From Anabaena sp. PCC 7108 (GTDB lineage: Bacteria > Cyanobacteriota > Cyanobacteriia > Cyanobacteriales > Nostocaceae): a DNA stretch of 64,000 nt. The stretch spans positions 2,615,403 to 2,679,402 of the forward strand of contig NZ_KB235896.1 of NCBI RefSeq assembly GCF_000332135.1, given 5' to 3'. Under the pieces are notes generated by a model, which searched no databases, was not told where the DNA came from, and worked only from the letters and a program-made list of their open reading frames with translations. This document shows positions 6,524 to 45,177 of the stretch, piece after piece. Each line of letters begins with the position of its first letter. Position 1 is the first letter of the stretch. The position numbers and the translations under genes are program-made.

Positions 6524-6955
6524 TTATTCTGGTAGCCAGTCTTCATCTAAAACTAACTCTAATTCATAAAGACATTCTTCGGGAAATGTAGAAATTATCA
6601 ATCCCGTTTGTTTTGTTGCTTGACGACGTGCTTTTTCATAGCTTTCTGTTAATTGTTCTTGAGGATAATTTTTGAGACTAGGACTATCTTTTATAGTTAA
6701 TTCAATTTGAGTGCGTGCATCTGTGATAGAATCTAACCAACTATCGGAACGTCGTTGAGGTTGATATTGCCATTTTAGCAAGTGTAAAAGTAAGCGAATT
6801 AATTGACTAGAAATAGCTCTTTTTTCACTTTTAACCAAGTCGGAAATCTCCTCAATTAAATGTTCTTTGTCTATTTCTTGCCAACGATTTTCTAGTAATA
6901 GTTTTGCAGTTTCTTCCAGCCACATATTGAAATCTGTCTGATAAGTCACAGTCAT
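6524..6955 (-). CDS. DUF29 family protein
   Basis: About 143 residues from the preferred ATG at 6955, which follows an AGAGG motif; a start at 7000 would add 15 residues that do not look like the family. The N-terminal part DFNMWLEETAKLLLENRWQE, the DKEHLIEEISDLVKSEKRAI segment and the LLLHLLKWQYQPQRRSDSW core are diagnostic of DUF29, a small family much expanded in cyanobacteria. The function is unknown. It is the first of several small accessory genes on this strand. Convergent with ndhD1. Confidence 0.85.
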   Translation of the reverse strand: MTVTYQTDFNMWLEETAKLLLENRWQEIDKEHLIEEISDLVKSEKRAISSQLIRLLLHLLKWQYQPQRRSDSWLDSITDARTQIELTIKDSPSLKNYPQEQLTESYEKARRQATKQTGLIISTFPEECLYELELVLDEDWLPE

Positions 6956-7003
6956 TTTTAGTTTACCTCTAACTATAATTATTTTATGACAGATAATCAA
7001 TCA

Positions 7004-7318
7004 TCAGTGAATCATTTCATTTAAAGCTATATTAATTATTTCTTCACTAACTCCATGATGTTTCAAATTTTCAATAAAAGTAGAAATTCCTTGATTACGA
7101 CTTTCTAAATAATATAATATGGCTGCGATAGGAGATGGAGGATCAATAGGATATTTTTGTTGTTCATAGACTTCTACTAAAGTCGTTAAAATATCTAATT
7201 TTTTATATTCTGGTGTATGAGGTTCAGCATCAAAAATTTGTTCGATTTCTTTTAATGCCTGTTGATAATCTGATTCTGTTTTAATGGGTTTTAAAGACAT
7301 TTTTTTTGTTTCACTCAA
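7004..7318 (-). CDS. HigA-like antitoxin fragment or variant without the DNA-binding domain
   Basis: 104 residues. The first ~70 (SLKPIKTESDYQQALKEIEQ, then PIDPPSPIAAILYYLESR) match the N-terminal half of HigA-type antitoxins that pair with HigB toxins. In HigA an HTH domain follows the LESR position. Here the chain switches to NQGISTFIENLKHHGVSEEI and ends, so no HTH is visible. No HigB-like gene is adjacent; the neighbours are DUF29 and DUF5615. It may be a remnant or a repurposed protein. Confidence 0.6.
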   Translation of the reverse strand: MSETKKMSLKPIKTESDYQQALKEIEQIFDAEPHTPEYKKLDILTTLVEVYEQQKYPIDPPSPIAAILYYLESRNQGISTFIENLKHHGVSEEIINIALNEMIH

Positions 7319-7335
7319 AGTTTTATAAAATTTGT

Positions 7336-7668
7336 TTAATATAGTGTCAAAACTCCTAAATCTGAATTTTCTGCAAAGGCTTGGATGTCCTCTAAATGTG
7401 ATTGCAAAATCTCTTCAATCTGGTTAGTTGAACAATTACCACGTCTAATCCAAATCACTTTCGGCGGATATCCACGCAGTATACTTAATTCATTAAAATC
7501 AGCATCTCTGGTAACAATTATAAATTTATTTTGTTTTGCAAATTCCCACAAAATTCTATCATCAGCTTGATCTAAACCTAAGAGAAAAACGTGCTGAGAG
7601 TTGGGGTAAATAGCAGCGAGTTTATCTACTAACCGGGGTGATAGATTATGGTCAAATAATAACTTCAT
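7336..7668 (-). CDS. DUF5615 PIN-like protein, probable toxin
   Basis: A 110-residue protein with the PIN-like signature of DUF5615: LLFDHNLSPRLVD at the N-terminus with the first acidic residue, and FIIVTRDADFNELS at about 50-62 with the second acidic cluster. The PPKVIWIRRGNCSTNQIEEI strand-helix closes the domain. PIN-like toxins are usually RNases; activity here is inferred. Its start overlaps the end of the DUF433 gene by four bases (ATGA), so the two are translationally coupled. Confidence 0.85.
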   Translation of the reverse strand: MKLLFDHNLSPRLVDKLAAIYPNSQHVFLLGLDQADDRILWEFAKQNKFIIVTRDADFNELSILRGYPPKVIWIRRGNCSTNQIEEILQSHLEDIQAFAENSDLGVLTLY

Positions 7669-8015: not shown

Positions 8016-8807
8016 TTATAATATATCAACATCTTCTATAATAAAAAAATTTGTGATTAAATGCTTATCAATTTTCAATGCCAATTCTCTAAAAAAATTA
8101 TTCATTTTAATAGCTTTTGATAAGTCAATTTCTTTTATTTCACCATGAGCTATTTTATTGCGAATATCTGTTATTTCCTGAAAATTTTCCTTTTCTTGTT
8201 CTGTCATTTCTAATCCAAAGACATCATTTAAAATACGAGGAATTTCTTTGGATTTCATATACTTAATATTATCCAACTCCTTTTTTAGTTCATTTAATCC
8301 ATAAACAGATAATAATTGTGACGGAAACATATAGCCTTGTTGTATCAATTCATTTATAGCTTTTTTATATTTTAATACTTTTCCCTTCTTTTTTGAATTT
8401 GAATCTCTCAATTGAGCAACTAAATCATTTCGGTAATTTTGTCGATTTATTTGATTATCTCGCTTTAGCTTTACATAGCTTAAATAATTTTCCACACCAC
8501 CATTAATTTTAAAAAATTCCTCAATCACTGACTTAATATAGACCTCAAAATAACTAAATGCCGTAAGATATAAGAACTTGCCCAAACTTTTTTTATAATT
8601 AGGCATAATTTCTTTTAATCTATCATGGTCTGCAATTTGCTGAAAATAATCAGGATGAGGAATGTTAGGGGGTTTACCGTTACCAAGTTCAACAGCTTTT
8701 ATGTAAGCATTAAGAGCAGGTACAGCATGACAAGACAAAAGTACAAAATTAAGAGACTCTTGTATTTGATTTTTCAGAATTTTGTAGTTTTCTGAATACT
8801 TTCTCAT
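8016..8807 (-). CDS. HEPN-domain protein (RiboL-PSP-HEPN type), putative RNase
   Basis: A 263-residue Lys-rich, all-helical protein. The C-terminal ITDIRNKIAHGE carries the HEPN R-x4-H motif (Arg216, His221), the usual active site of HEPN RNases. The long N-terminal helical part with a FLYLTAFSYFEVYIKSVIEE core matches the RiboL-PSP-HEPN type (MAE_28990/MAE_18760-like). HEPN proteins often act in antiviral or abortive systems by cutting RNA, including tRNA. It is transcribed away from the interrupted tRNA-like gene, 50 bases apart, in very AT-rich DNA. No antitoxin such as MNT is adjacent. Confidence 0.75.
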   Translation of the reverse strand: MRKYSENYKILKNQIQESLNFVLLSCHAVPALNAYIKAVELGNGKPPNIPHPDYFQQIADHDRLKEIMPNYKKSLGKFLYLTAFSYFEVYIKSVIEEFFKINGGVENYLSYVKLKRDNQINRQNYRNDLVAQLRDSNSKKKGKVLKYKKAINELIQQGYMFPSQLLSVYGLNELKKELDNIKYMKSKEIPRILNDVFGLEMTEQEKENFQEITDIRNKIAHGEIKEIDLSKAIKMNNFFRELALKIDKHLITNFFIIEDVDIL

Positions 8808-8845
8808 AATTTACTATTGACTTATTTACTCTTAATCACTTATTG

Positions 8846-8851
8846 TATAAT
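8846..8851 (+). promoter_or_regulatory. -10 promoter element of the tRNA-like gene
   Basis: A perfect TATAAT lies 6 bases before the first base of the acceptor stem, so transcription would begin at or near the tRNA 5' end. A TTGACT lies further upstream at 8817-8822, but its 23-base spacer is longer than usual; TTACTC at 8825-8830 gives 15 bases. The -35 is therefore uncertain. Confidence 0.5.
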
Positions 8852-8857
8852 ATACAT

Positions 8858-8966
8858 GGACTGCTAGGGTAATGGTTAGCCCACTCCCCTCCTTTCTATA
8901 TGCAAGGAATGTCACTTAGTTTGCATACAAAAGGGAGCAGATTCGGTTCAATTCCGAAGCAGTCCA
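8858..8966 (+). tRNA. tRNA-Arg(CCU)-like gene with a 37-nt insert in the anticodon loop
   Basis: Acceptor stem GGACTGC (8858-8864) pairs perfectly with GCAGTCC (8959-8965), with discriminator A at 8966. The D-arm is canonical (TA, then GGGT/GCCC with GG in the loop). The T-arm is TTCGG-TTCAATT-CCGAA. The anticodon stem is CTCCC (8884-8888) with GGGAG (8933-8937). Between them are 44 bases instead of 7. Removing about 8894-8930 gives the loop CTCCTAA, the normal tRNA-Arg(CCU) loop. The insert has its own hairpin: TATGCAA (8899-8905) with TTGCATA (8921-8927). It is far too short for a group I intron and does not end in G. No CCA is encoded. It may be a functional tRNA with a processed insert, an extended-arm tRNA, or a broken copy. 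Confidence 0.6.
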
Positions 8967-8993
8967 CTTTAATTGTTTGGTTAATCAGCTTGA

Positions 8994-9605
8994 TTATTTG
9001 TCAGAAGAATTTTGAGATCCTGGATTTTTGGGTGGTGTTTCAGGAGGTTTGGGAGGTTGGGCAGCAGGTTTGGGAGATTGAGGACGCAATTGAGAAGCGC
9101 CACTCATACTGTGCTTCTCTTCCCGTTGCTGATGCTGTTTATTAAGGTGTTGTTCTTGACTCATACTTGTTTTTTTCTCGCTGAGGTTTAGTGTTGCTGA
9201 ATTAATTCCAATGATCACTACTAAAATTATACCTGTGATAAAACCCAATTCAGCAATTTTATCTAGAAGCATCAAAATTTTATCTTGGGTTTGATTCTCG
9301 CTCAGAATTTTCTCAATGTGTAAAGCGTTTCTATCAAGTATATAAATAATAGAAATAACTGTAATCAAAAAGCTAAGTAGAGTAAAACTAAACAGAAGTA
9401 GCTGAGTAAAGTTTGAAACGCCAATAGTTCTAAGTAAAGTAACCAGAACTCCAATTGCAGTTACAGATAGTGTTAATAGTTATTTATCTCTTTCAATCCT
9501 TGTGTTAATCCAAGCACTAACCATAGCACTATAGAAAGCTTTCTCTTTTTCTATATATTCTTTTTGTTGTAAATTTTCTGTATTATCTATTTTCTCATCA
9601 TTCAT
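8994..9605 (-). pseudogene. Membrane protein with a Pro-rich tail, interrupted by one in-frame stop codon
   Basis: From an ATG at 9605 the minus strand encodes 41 residues (MNDEKIDNTENLQQKEYIEK, ending INTRIERDK) and then TAA at 9482-9480. The same frame continues without a shift into LLTLSVTAIGVLVTLLRTIG, a second hydrophobic segment LLLFSFTLLSFLITVISIIY and a third around FITGIILVVIIGI. A soluble Gln/Pro-rich tail ends at 8994. A CAA-to-TAA change (Gln in a DKQLLTLS-like context) would explain the break. A TTG at 9368 could still start a 124-residue fragment. The intact form would be ~203 residues with two or three membrane helices. The family is not recognised; small membrane proteins of this shape are seen as effectors beside defence genes, which is inference. 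Confidence 0.65.
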
Positions 9606-41619: not shown

Positions 41620-43722
41620 TTAAAAAGTAGCACTCAAACCAATTTGAAAACCTCTACCTCCGTCAGGAAAACCAGGAAACAACTGATAACGCTGATTAAA
41701 GAGATTTTCCACACTACCTGTAACTACCAGTTTATCATTTAAAGGTACACGCAGTTTAAAATCAAAAGTGGTATAACCAGATAAAAATTCTGTATTTGTA
41801 TTATTAGTAGGATATCCATTTAAGGAATTCATTAATAAACCCAAATACAAACCTTGAGGATTTTCATAAGAAACTCCCAAATTTAATTTATCTGCACCAG
41901 CGAAGCGCAATTCTTTGTCAATTTCTGCCGCATTAGAACTTTTCAAAATACGCGGATCATTTGCCGTGTAATTAACAAAAGTATAAATGTTTTTGGCAAG
42001 TTGCAAATTCAAAGTCGCCTCAATTCCAGTAGTTTCCACCAGTCCGATATTTTCCCAAGTTCCTGTATTACCATTTACTGGTGGTGTCAGTCTTTTAAAG
42101 GCAATTGTATCTGATACGCTATTTTTGAAAAATGTTAATCTTACTAAACCAATATTACCAAGTTTTTGGTCAATGCCAATATCAAAACTATCACCTCTTT
42201 CTGGTTTAAGTTCTGGGTTGCCAATATTGCTAGGATTGACATTAAATAAGTTAGCAATAGTAGGAACTCGGAAATTTTTGATGTAATTTGCTCTTAAGGT
42301 GGTTGAGTCGGAAACAGCAAATTTTGTTCCTACAGATGGAGATGTAACAGAACCATTTATCAAGCTGCTAAAATCTTGACGTAAACCTAAATTAACAGTC
42401 AAATTAGGGATTAATGCTACTTCATATTTGGCAAATAATGCTCCTTGATTAATATCATTGTCATAGTTCAATGTTTCTATATTAGTGGAATAGCTAAAAG
42501 AAGTATTCCGAACATTGACAGTGCGATAATCAAAGCCATAAACTAAACTTTGATTTTTAGCAAAATTCCAACTATGTGTAGTTTGAATTCCGTAGGAACT
42601 TTGGTTAGTTTCAAAGCGACTTGAACCACTAGGATCAAAACGAGTGTTCAAAAAATCACCATAAACTCTTGCTGTTAATAAAGAATCATCTCCACCTCCT
42701 AATTTTGAATTCCAGGTTAAATCCGTTAAAACTTGATCTGTGTATTTGCGATTTTTATCGGTAAGCGAATTAAAAAAACCTTGTCCATTGACTGGAAAAG
42801 GAATTGGCACTCCTCCTGGTGTTCCTTGTTCTTTATTTAAGTATAAAGTCGAGAAACTGAGTGTATTTCGTTTTCCTAAATCTGCTTCTAATTTGAGATT
42901 AAAATTGTTATAAAGTGCATCATTATTTTTTCGAGTTCCCGAAAAATTAGCTTCAGGAATAGAAAAAGGATAATTATTTTCAGCTTGGGTACGGTTATAA
43001 CCTACAACCCAAGAAATATCACCCTTTTTACCGCTATTTTGAATACTCTGTTGATTGAGTCCATAAGCACCAAAATTTACTTTTGCTTCTGTGGTAATTT
43101 TCTCTGTAGGACGACGGGTGATAATATTAATTACTCCCCCAATTGCATCAGAACCATACAGAGTTGAACCTCCTCCTGGTAATACTTCAACTCTTTGAAT
43201 ATTGTTTGTTGTAAATTCGGAAAGATCAAAACCACCACTACCGGCATTATTAATTGGTCTACCATCAAGTAATATTAATACTTGACCAGTATTAGAACCA
43301 CGAATAAATTGACCACTTAAAGCATTAACTTCTGTTCCTACTGTACCATCACCTAATATACCAGGCAGAAATTTAAGTGCTTCTCTGACGGTTCTCGCAC
43401 CTTGTGCTTCCATTTCTTCACCCGTAATTACATAAATTGGTCGGGTAGAATCTTTGACTGTTCCTTCCCGACGAAAGGGTGAAAAAACAGGTTCATTTAA
43501 TATTGTGTCAATGACATTTATTTCAATATCAGCTTCTTTTTCTTCTGTAGCTTTTGGTGGATTTTGAGATATTTCTTCTACGACTGGTTGTAAATCTTTT
43601 GCAGAACCTTTGTCTTGGGGAATTTCTACTCCGATAACTTTGCAATTCTCACACCACATTCCCAAAGTCACACTAGACGCAATAATTTGAATTCCCAGTT
43701 TCGCAACTAAATTAGTAGACAT
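41620..43722 (-). CDS. TonB-dependent outer-membrane receptor
   Basis: A 700-residue receptor. The plug domain is clear from ~85: PIYVITGEEMEAQGARTVRE, then PGILGDG, QVLILLDGRPIN, QRVEVLPGGGSTLYGSDAIG and VINIITRR. The 22-strand barrel follows, with NYIKNFRVPTIANLFNV and the ending GFQIGLSATF, a normal C-terminal Phe. The N-terminus (IIASSVTLGM) is a weak signal, followed by a long acidic linker before the plug. There is no STN signalling domain. It imports a corrinoid (BtuB-like) or a siderophore. A Fur-box-like palindrome lies ~140 bases upstream and a cobalamin riboswitch precedes the gene before it. Confidence 0.92.
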   Translation of the reverse strand: MSTNLVAKLGIQIIASSVTLGMWCENCKVIGVEIPQDKGSAKDLQPVVEEISQNPPKATEEKEADIEINVIDTILNEPVFSPFRREGTVKDSTRPIYVITGEEMEAQGARTVREALKFLPGILGDGTVGTEVNALSGQFIRGSNTGQVLILLDGRPINNAGSGGFDLSEFTTNNIQRVEVLPGGGSTLYGSDAIGGVINIITRRPTEKITTEAKVNFGAYGLNQQSIQNSGKKGDISWVVGYNRTQAENNYPFSIPEANFSGTRKNNDALYNNFNLKLEADLGKRNTLSFSTLYLNKEQGTPGGVPIPFPVNGQGFFNSLTDKNRKYTDQVLTDLTWNSKLGGGDDSLLTARVYGDFLNTRFDPSGSSRFETNQSSYGIQTTHSWNFAKNQSLVYGFDYRTVNVRNTSFSYSTNIETLNYDNDINQGALFAKYEVALIPNLTVNLGLRQDFSSLINGSVTSPSVGTKFAVSDSTTLRANYIKNFRVPTIANLFNVNPSNIGNPELKPERGDSFDIGIDQKLGNIGLVRLTFFKNSVSDTIAFKRLTPPVNGNTGTWENIGLVETTGIEATLNLQLAKNIYTFVNYTANDPRILKSSNAAEIDKELRFAGADKLNLGVSYENPQGLYLGLLMNSLNGYPTNNTNTEFLSGYTTFDFKLRVPLNDKLVVTGSVENLFNQRYQLFPGFPDGGRGFQIGLSATF

Positions 43723-44382: not shown

Positions 44383-45177
44383 TGATTGAAAAATGTGTAA
44401 GAACTAGTCGGGAACGCAGACATGAAAGTTTTTACAGCGAAACTACAGCAGCAACCTCTCCTGCAAACCAATAATGTTTGAAATCATTCCTTCCCAAGCT
44501 AAAAAAGGACTGATGTCAATTGATATATTTGATTGAATTGAAAACTGCTATGTTTATGTAAAGTTGCCAGAAATCTATTGAAGATATGAATAAGCGTCAG
44601 TCATATACGCTTGCCGTCTTCTCGGATAAAAGGGTATAAAAAATTAAATTGACTGTTGATACTCTCAGAGTAATATACAATTTGTAGAGAATCTCTGATG
44701 CCAAAATGATGAATTTTGATGGAAATATTCATGGATTTATTCATCTGTACCACGCAGATGGATATAAGTTATTTTACCTTCGGCGGGCATTCTGACTTAG
44801 AGAGATAATTCTCATTACAGCTGCGGGACAGCGTTGGATTTACACCAAACTTTCCCCCTTGCGTTTAATGGTTTTTGCCATTAAAACCGACGTATAAATG
44901 AACATACTATAGTTTTTGTCTATTGTCAATAGGCATCGCCGGATAATATTTGTTTATCCTTTTTGTGAAAGGCTTTTTGGGAAGAAATTAATCATGATGA
45001 TGCTGGATTCTATAAAAGAATTGTAGTCAAATTGAGCAGTTCTTTGGAGAAAAAAATTTTGGCAAGGACTTGTAAATCTATTTGAATCCTTAGCTTGATA
45101 GTTGAATATAAATATAAATTTCCCAAACCAAATACTTTCAAATATTACACTCTATAACTCTGCACCACTGGGGGCTA
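44383..45177. other. Long leader and gene-free stretch around the riboswitch
   Basis: Apart from the riboswitch (44775-44895), the 390 bases between it and the DUF1636 start are AT-rich and hold no recognisable gene. They may contain the expression platform: CTCTGAGAGT and AGAGATTCTCT segments near 44665-44700 can fold on each other. 44896-45177 holds nothing that I can identify, and the plus-strand open frame there is antisense to nth. Confidence 0.45.
44775..44895 (-). promoter_or_regulatory. Cobalamin riboswitch
   Basis: On the minus strand, from about 44895, the conserved elements appear in order. First comes a GGTTTTAATGGC arm, then GGTGTAAATCC. The B12 box core GCTGTCCCGCAGCTGTAA follows (44815-44832), then a variable TGAGAATTATCTCTC hairpin, and AAGTCAGAATGCCCGCC with the closing arm. 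All hallmark motifs of the B12-binding aptamer are present. In this class, binding of adenosyl- or methylcobalamin shuts off downstream expression. The controlled genes here are DUF1636 and possibly the receptor and ABC genes. Confidence 0.92.

Follow-up and report, generated by a model that had tools for sequence, protein, structure and literature searches.

A tRNA-like RNA gene with a hairpin in its anticodon loop beside a HEPN-domain protein gene in Anabaena sp. PCC 7108

The tRNA-like gene and its surroundings

The window, by which is meant the whole 64,000-nt stretch of Anabaena sp. PCC 7108 DNA that was analysed, contains a gene for a tRNA-shaped RNA with an enlarged anticodon loop and, next to it, a divergent gene for a HEPN-domain protein (Table 1). 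Re-analysis confirmed the coordinates and the tRNA anatomy, with a hairpin in a 44-base loop, that had been given in the first-pass annotation. The statement that all stems were perfect held for their completeness (7+4+5+5 pairs), but one D-stem pair is T-G, leaving 20 of the 21 pairs Watson–Crick. The variable loop is 4 nt long, and the bases that form the tRNA elbow (T8-A14, G18 G19 and TTCAA) are present. The G+C content of the RNA gene is 46.8 %, against 37.6 % for the window.

Table 1. Positions in the window of the tRNA-like RNA gene, its parts and the neighbouring gene
Feature	Position	Strand	Remarks
HEPN-domain protein gene, 263 aa	8016..8807	-	RNxxxH motif (RNKIAH); divergent, 50 bp from the RNA
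TATAAT, -10-like	8846-8851	+	6 bases before G1
Whole tRNA-like RNA gene	8858..8966	+	Complete cloverleaf, 44-nt anticodon loop
Acceptor stem, 5' side, GGACTGC	8858..8864	+	Partner 8959-8965 (GCAGTCC), 7/7 Watson–Crick
D arm, GGGT-AATGGTTA-GCCC	8867..8882	+	One T-G pair; GG in D-loop
Anticodon stem, 5' side, CTCCC	8884..8888	+	Pairs with 8933-8937 in the cloverleaf reading, 5/5
Stretch of 44 nt replacing the 7-nt anticodon loop	8889..8932	+	
Hairpin TATGCAAG...TTTGCATA within the 44-nt loop	8899..8927	+	
Anticodon stem, 3' side, GGGAG	8933..8937	+	
T arm, TTCGG-TTCAATT-CCGAA	8942..8958	+	5/5 pairs, T-loop TTCAATT
Acceptor stem, 3' side, and discriminator A	8959..8966	+	No CCA encoded

The TATAAT reported earlier just upstream of the RNA gene was borne out, and its spacing suggests that transcription may start at or near G1. 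A TTGACT at 8817-8822, 23 bases above the TATAAT, is too distant for a standard -35 element, and a consensus promoter scan listed TTGACT/TATTGT with a spacing of 18 instead of the TATAAT. One promoter-like site was found, compared with an average of 1.3 in shuffled sequences, and a scan of the locus found no terminator for the RNA gene.

The neighbouring protein was assigned by Pfam to HEPN_RiboL-PSP (6.9e-12, 46.1 bits); it also scored 26.5 bits with Abi_2 (cut-off 25.6), the HEPN_RiboL-PSP score being the higher of the two. Its gene has a G+C content of only 27 %, compared with 37.6 % for the window. The segment 7924-9068, comprising the HEPN gene and the RNA, had no match in any of seven related loci (four from congeners and three from other family members). 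Both of its flanks aligned in four of the seven (L092, L094, L095 and L098; three congeners and one other genus), whereas in the other three (L093, L096 and L097; one congener) a single flank aligned or the flank was rearranged. The RNA and the HEPN gene were each found only here in the order sample.

The small genes around this segment encode DUF29, a PD-Lambda-2_B-like N-terminus, DUF5615 and Uma2. The first three form a row at 6524-7668 on the minus strand, parts of which are rearranged in the congener L093, and the 104-aa protein within the row matches the N-terminus of PADLOC PD-Lambda-2_B (8e-17); all four genes have a toxin–antitoxin or nuclease appearance, and those of the row may equally be defence genes. 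At 8994-9600 (minus strand) lies a small membrane-protein-like frame with an internal stop; the homologous frame of a congener (L095, 7746-8351) is intact, encodes 201 aa and gave no Pfam match at E 0.01. A weak Yfr10 match inside the HEPN coding region (8725-8796, minus strand; 26.2 bits, gathering score 43) is probably due to chance, and a cobalamin riboswitch was detected elsewhere in the window at 44765-44906 (minus strand, 63.6 bits).

Fold of the RNA and comparison with decoding tRNAs

The cloverleaf lacks none of its parts and lies far outside what chance would produce. When both strands of the 64 kb were scanned for strict cloverleaves, this RNA was the single find; none of 100 dinucleotide-shuffled windows yielded such an object, and a looser scan added one further place in the window, at 41885, that looks spurious. 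The strand 8858-8967 had a folding energy of -39.4 kcal/mol, compared with a shuffle mean of -25.1 (z -4.4), a value equalled by none of 200 shuffles. The gene was not called by ARAGORN when introns were disallowed and had no match in an Rfam cmscan; with introns allowed, ARAGORN labelled it Leu(CAA).

RNAfold gave the canonical anticodon stem (8884-8888 with 8933-8937) a pair probability of at most 0.004. Instead, GGGAG was predicted to pair with CTCCT at 8889-8893 (probability 0.98-0.99), producing a long arm in which CTCCTTT/AAGGGAG and the TATGCAAG/TTTGCATA hairpin are continuous, with a small internal loop. Forcing the cloverleaf onto the RNA costs 4.7 kcal/mol. Support for the remaining stems was moderate (D stem 0.65-0.67, T stem 0.72-0.79, first T pair 0.13), and because RNAfold ignores tertiary contacts and modifications the preference for the shifted arm is a lean rather than a proof. 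The loop hairpin is single-copy in the genome in a search allowing up to three mismatches, on which ground a repeat or MITE insert was rejected. No clear parent was found among the host tRNAs, the best partial match being tRNA-Val(GAC) with a summed local score of 20.5. The loop contains CCTCCTTT, which resembles the 3' end of the host 16S rRNA (CACCTCCTTTTTAGG); the likeness is short, was noticed post hoc and carries no argument.

The gene had been labelled tRNA-Arg(CCU) in the first-pass annotation on the ground that removing 37 bases restores CTCCTAA. This is true, CTCCTAA being the loop of the host tRNA-Arg(CCU) when the loop is kept as 5+2 bases, but it is not unique: keeping 4+3 bases gives CTCCAAA, the loop of the host tRNA-Trp(CCA), and keeping 3+4 bases gives CTCAAAA, the loop of the host tRNA-Leu(CAA). 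With three host loops obtainable by three different cuts, the gene cannot be given an anticodon. A search for a normal tRNA-Arg(CCU) gene elsewhere in the genome, which had been proposed as a check, found an intact one (locus L026), so that the Arg(CCU) label is weakened on both counts. Intact genes for tRNA-Trp(CCA) and tRNA-Leu(CAA) are likewise present in the host, which has tRNAs for all 20 amino acids. The host tRNAs listed do not include a tRNA-Leu(UAA), whose gene is often interrupted by a group I intron in cyanobacteria and would then escape such searches.

The RNA shares with decoding tRNAs the cloverleaf stems and the elbow bases of the D- and T-loops, but a 7-nt loop with an unambiguous anticodon is missing, its place being taken by 44 nt that can be cut in three equally good ways. 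The core also differs. Position 11 is a pyrimidine in all 42 distinct host tRNAs, whereas the RNA has G11-C24; decoding tRNAs follow the R15-Y48 (Levitt pair) rule, and the RNA has A15/A48 instead, so that both the Y11-R24 and the R15-Y48 core pairs are absent. With its elbow bases intact and these core positions unlike those of decoding tRNAs, the RNA looks, as far as its sequence goes, tRNA-like in the top half and not in the decoding half.

The group I introns of tRNA-Arg(CCU), tRNA-Leu(UAA) and tRNA-fMet are situated in the anticodon loop, as is the insert here, but this insert is far too short for a catalytic core (>200 nt), which is absent, and cmscan gave no match to any group I family in Rfam; the earlier argument that it is too short for a group I intron was therefore upheld. 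Nor was a bulge-helix-bulge found at the junctions, where RNAfold predicted a continuous arm. Bacterial tRNA genes are presented as uniform apart from group I and group II introns in passages of a review (PMC4033280). A spliced Arg(CCU) gene was rejected as the main reading on the three cuts, the intact host gene and the shifted-arm fold, and it is improbable that the RNA is an Arg(CCU) tRNA with an intron.

Relatives of the RNA and of the HEPN protein

No homologue of the RNA was detected by DNA search in 59 relatives (E 0.01), by a covariance model of limited sensitivity, built from the RNA alone, in the 387 other genomes sampled from the order (E 1e-4), or by blastn in plasmids and phages. 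An exact 18-mer of the D arm had no match in viral contigs, and an exact 19-mer of the T arm matched one viral contig, in which it belongs to a 71-nt cloverleaf with a CTCATAA loop inside a tRNA array. The order-wide search was run with Infernal's stricter filters: an ordinary tRNA on locus L112 (genome G033), scoring 38.1 bits with the RNA model (about E 3e-5 by scaling), went unreported at the limit of 1e-4, so that matches scoring less than about 40 bits may go undetected. On its reverse strand, the RNA locus itself scored 40.6 bits, and scores of that size are thus no proof of kinship. Only close relatives of the RNA are excluded by the model search. Since no homologue is known, there is neither covariation nor a sign of selection to report for the RNA. 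A whole-genome tRNA search, in which 150 of 410 candidates were scored, missed the window RNA itself, and other such genes may therefore have escaped.

Other tRNA-like RNAs were encountered in this genome. Three clear and one degraded copies lie directly upstream of a Ro60 gene (TROVE and vWA_Ro60 domains) at C2:3048367-3048970 (L045 2000-2603, minus strand). In these RNAs, which ARAGORN read as intron-bearing tRNAs, a conserved module, CTTGCCT..AGGCCGA..AGGGTTATCG, takes the place of the anticodon arm; the Rfam YrlA model scored 26.1 bits on the locus (gathering 69), and clusters of the same RNAs were present in related genomes (L109-L111). YrlA mimics tRNA, and the L045-type RNAs are best read as YrlA-type Y RNAs. 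Like them, the window RNA has a tRNA body whose anticodon arm is replaced by a structured element, but it lacks the Y module and is not adjacent to a Ro60 gene. A second tRNA-like gene is found at C2:2736692-2736790 (L046 1000-1098, minus strand). Its D arm is Leu-like and its anticodon region holds additional sequence, by eye a short hairpin (GCC-AAAT-GGC); it scores 39 bits with RF00005 and is matched by relatives over 20-27 bases only. In related genomes (L112-L115), arrays of at least 9 to 21 tRNA genes within 3 kb include odd tRNAs, and one tRNA of L112 has, by eye, an insert in the variable region.

In cyanobacterial genes for tRNA-Arg, -Gly and -Lys, anticodon-loop inserts of 22-49 nt, comparable to that of the window RNA, are described as 'group I introns' in the sections of PMC5733544 (2017) drawn on here. 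Five motifs are printed there for the inserts of the Gly and Lys genes: CTTGxCT and AAGxC agree with the Y-RNA module, GAAGAAT has no exact fit, and the remaining two are too short for a verdict. The fit of the first two suggests that the Gly and Lys 'introns', two of the three kinds reported, may be Ro60 Y RNAs, as judged by printed motifs rather than full sequences.

A search with the single HEPN sequence gave two weak partial matches among the 387 other genomes of the order and none in plasmids, phages, genome contigs or viral contigs. Searching with a mixed HEPN alignment recovered six relatives that match residues 3 or 4 to 257 at 29-36 % identity, originating from Alteromonas, two gammaproteobacterial MAGs, Duganella, Psychrobacter and Acinetobacter (the last with an internal stop), and a profile of the window protein and five relatives added a seventh from a viral contig at 39 % identity. 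With this profile, no member was recovered from the other 387 order genomes or from 174 others of the phylum (the 175 phylum genomes overlap in listed members with the 388 order genomes, both counts including the source genome), and later searches of plasmids and phages found none either. The motif RNxIAHG does not vary among the window protein and the five relatives aligned with it, and L105 has it as well. Four of the seven relatives, when scanned, matched HEPN_RiboL-PSP, with no Abi_2 match at E 0.01. In all seven, the G+C content of the HEPN gene is lower than that of its own locus. Of 42 proteins encoded at and near the loci of the seven relatives, none but the HEPN protein recurred between loci; no conserved protein antitoxin is therefore seen there, and an RNA partner is conceivable.

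No tRNA-like gene was found beside any of the seven relatives in flanks of 0.7-4 kb a side (971 bases upstream for L104 and 689 downstream for L102), using a custom scan, ARAGORN with introns and the RNA model. A half tRNA at the edge of locus L105, about 3.9 kb from a HEPN gene whose frame has an internal stop, was not counted. No shared non-coding block was found within 600 bases either side of the HEPN genes, and the RNA model had no match in the genomes or records of all seven relatives, a result that is uninformative alone for want of a positive control. ARAGORN with introns likewise found no tRNA-like gene at the 30 best-scoring HEPN_RiboL-PSP loci of the order (one of them in this genome) or at the two weak matches of the single-sequence search, which may not be HEPN genes. 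A conserved pairing of HEPN protein and RNA is thus unsupported (0/7 relatives with the RNA), and any pairing is at most lineage-specific. Four of the seven relatives are 66-83 % identical to each other and hence represent few independent cases; at 29-39 % identity to the window protein, the homologues say little on recent pairings, either way.

Possible origins and role of the RNA

The anatomy of the RNA, its rarity and its linkage with the HEPN gene in this one genome are established at the level of sequence. The explanation that we tentatively place first, at somewhat less than an even chance, is that of an RNA that mimics tRNA without decoding, its gene sharing a small foreign cassette with that of a HEPN ribonuclease. 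Transcription would begin at or near G1, and the product would stay unspliced and be kept as a tRNA-shaped molecule of roughly 109 nt, which tRNA enzymes could trim and provide with CCA, the extended hairpin arm taking the place of decoding. We infer that the HEPN enzyme is the prime candidate partner; the most likely job of the RNA, which is weakly supported, would be to be bound by the enzyme as a tRNA-shaped inhibitor or decoy, much as AbiF-type HEPN proteins are restrained by RNA antitoxins. A more specific form is doubtful, namely that the RNA is an antitoxin, a co-acquired mimic that has a hairpin arm in place of the cleavable anticodon loop and restrains a tRNA-recognising HEPN ribonuclease.

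AbiF is a toxin with an RNA antitoxin, and the two loci resemble each other in that a HEPN protein, here of a Pfam family neighbouring Abi_2, lies beside a small structured RNA (RCd22/RF03085 in the case of AbiF). The window RNA has no RF03085 match in Rfam, however, and the conserved linkage of RNA and HEPN gene of the AbiF type was not found in the flanks searched of the seven relatives. In the portions of PMC12373285 used here, which describe the AbiF protein (Abi_2 family) with its linked ncRNA, RCd22 is upstream on the same strand, whereas the window RNA is tRNA-shaped and divergent from the HEPN gene. Among titles and abstract openings of open-licence PMC papers, no tRNA-like RNA paired with a HEPN gene was found.

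The strongest rival to the tRNA-mimic reading is a recently acquired dead tRNA, that is, a foreign tRNA gene, perhaps taken from the tRNA array of a phage or plasmid, in which the anticodon loop was recently interrupted and the stems have not yet decayed. We hold this to be unlikely, if a serious contender. In its favour, the gene is a singleton with no homologue found, it lies in a variable region where the frame at 8994-9600 is broken by a stop relative to its congener homologue, and the arrays of related genomes carry odd tRNAs, including the one with the variable-region insert (L112). Against it are the 20 of 21 Watson–Crick pairs and the intact elbow, the lack of a second genomic copy of the insert and, by eye, of a flanking duplication on both sides, and the longer paired arm formed by hairpin and stem, which would be unexpected for a random insert. 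The RNA could also be a functional small RNA of tRNA-like form whose job has nothing to do with the HEPN gene, for instance a sponge for a protein that binds tRNA, or a regulatory sRNA that owes its protection to the tRNA shape. Its anatomy would then be the same as that of a HEPN-associated mimic, this genome has other tRNA-like RNAs with replaced anticodon arms (the Ro60-linked cluster and the second kind at L046), and the HEPN relatives lack the RNA in the flanks searched; as no homologue was found and no other obvious partner gene is nearby, we consider this rather unlikely. The decoy and the pseudogene that kept its stems, both raised by the first-pass annotation, still stand.

Its further suggestion of an unknown processing route has been weakened. 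If this were a tRNA gene whose 37-nt mini-intron is excised by an unknown bacterial route, it would gain a normal loop and would have company in the published cyanobacterial inserts of 22-49 nt (PMC5733544), two kinds of which share motifs with the Y-RNA module, going by the motifs printed there, and may not be introns either. The existence of at least three cuts that restore a host loop, the intact host genes for tRNA-Arg(CCU), tRNA-Trp and tRNA-Leu(CAA), the failure to match group I introns, an arm that does not fold as a bulge-helix-bulge but in the shifted form, and G11 and A15/A48, which are poor for a decoding tRNA, make this very improbable. That the RNA is a stray Y RNA of the Ro60 system, whose host members share the plan of a tRNA body with a replaced anticodon arm, is more improbable still. 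A purpose-built model of ten such RNAs (three from this genome) gave no match to 8858-8966 at E 10, on which this identity was rejected; the best ungapped motif matches were partial (5/8, 5/7 and 8/11, chance level uncomputed), and the Ro60 gene near C2:3.047 Mb is about 0.42 Mb from the RNA at C2:2.624 Mb.

That gene finders miss the gene at 8858-8966 or label it an intron-bearing tRNA is a useful result regardless of which explanation applies, and two of the published short 'introns' of cyanobacterial tRNA genes could, by the motifs printed for them, be Y RNAs. Should the RNA be made and remain full-length, it would be an RNA that has kept the shape of a tRNA but abandoned decoding, and would fall outside the Ro60, tmRNA and viral examples already known. 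Should it, in addition, bind or restrain the HEPN enzyme, it would act as an antitoxin that mimics tRNA, offering a direct handle on how HEPN enzymes choose their tRNA targets.
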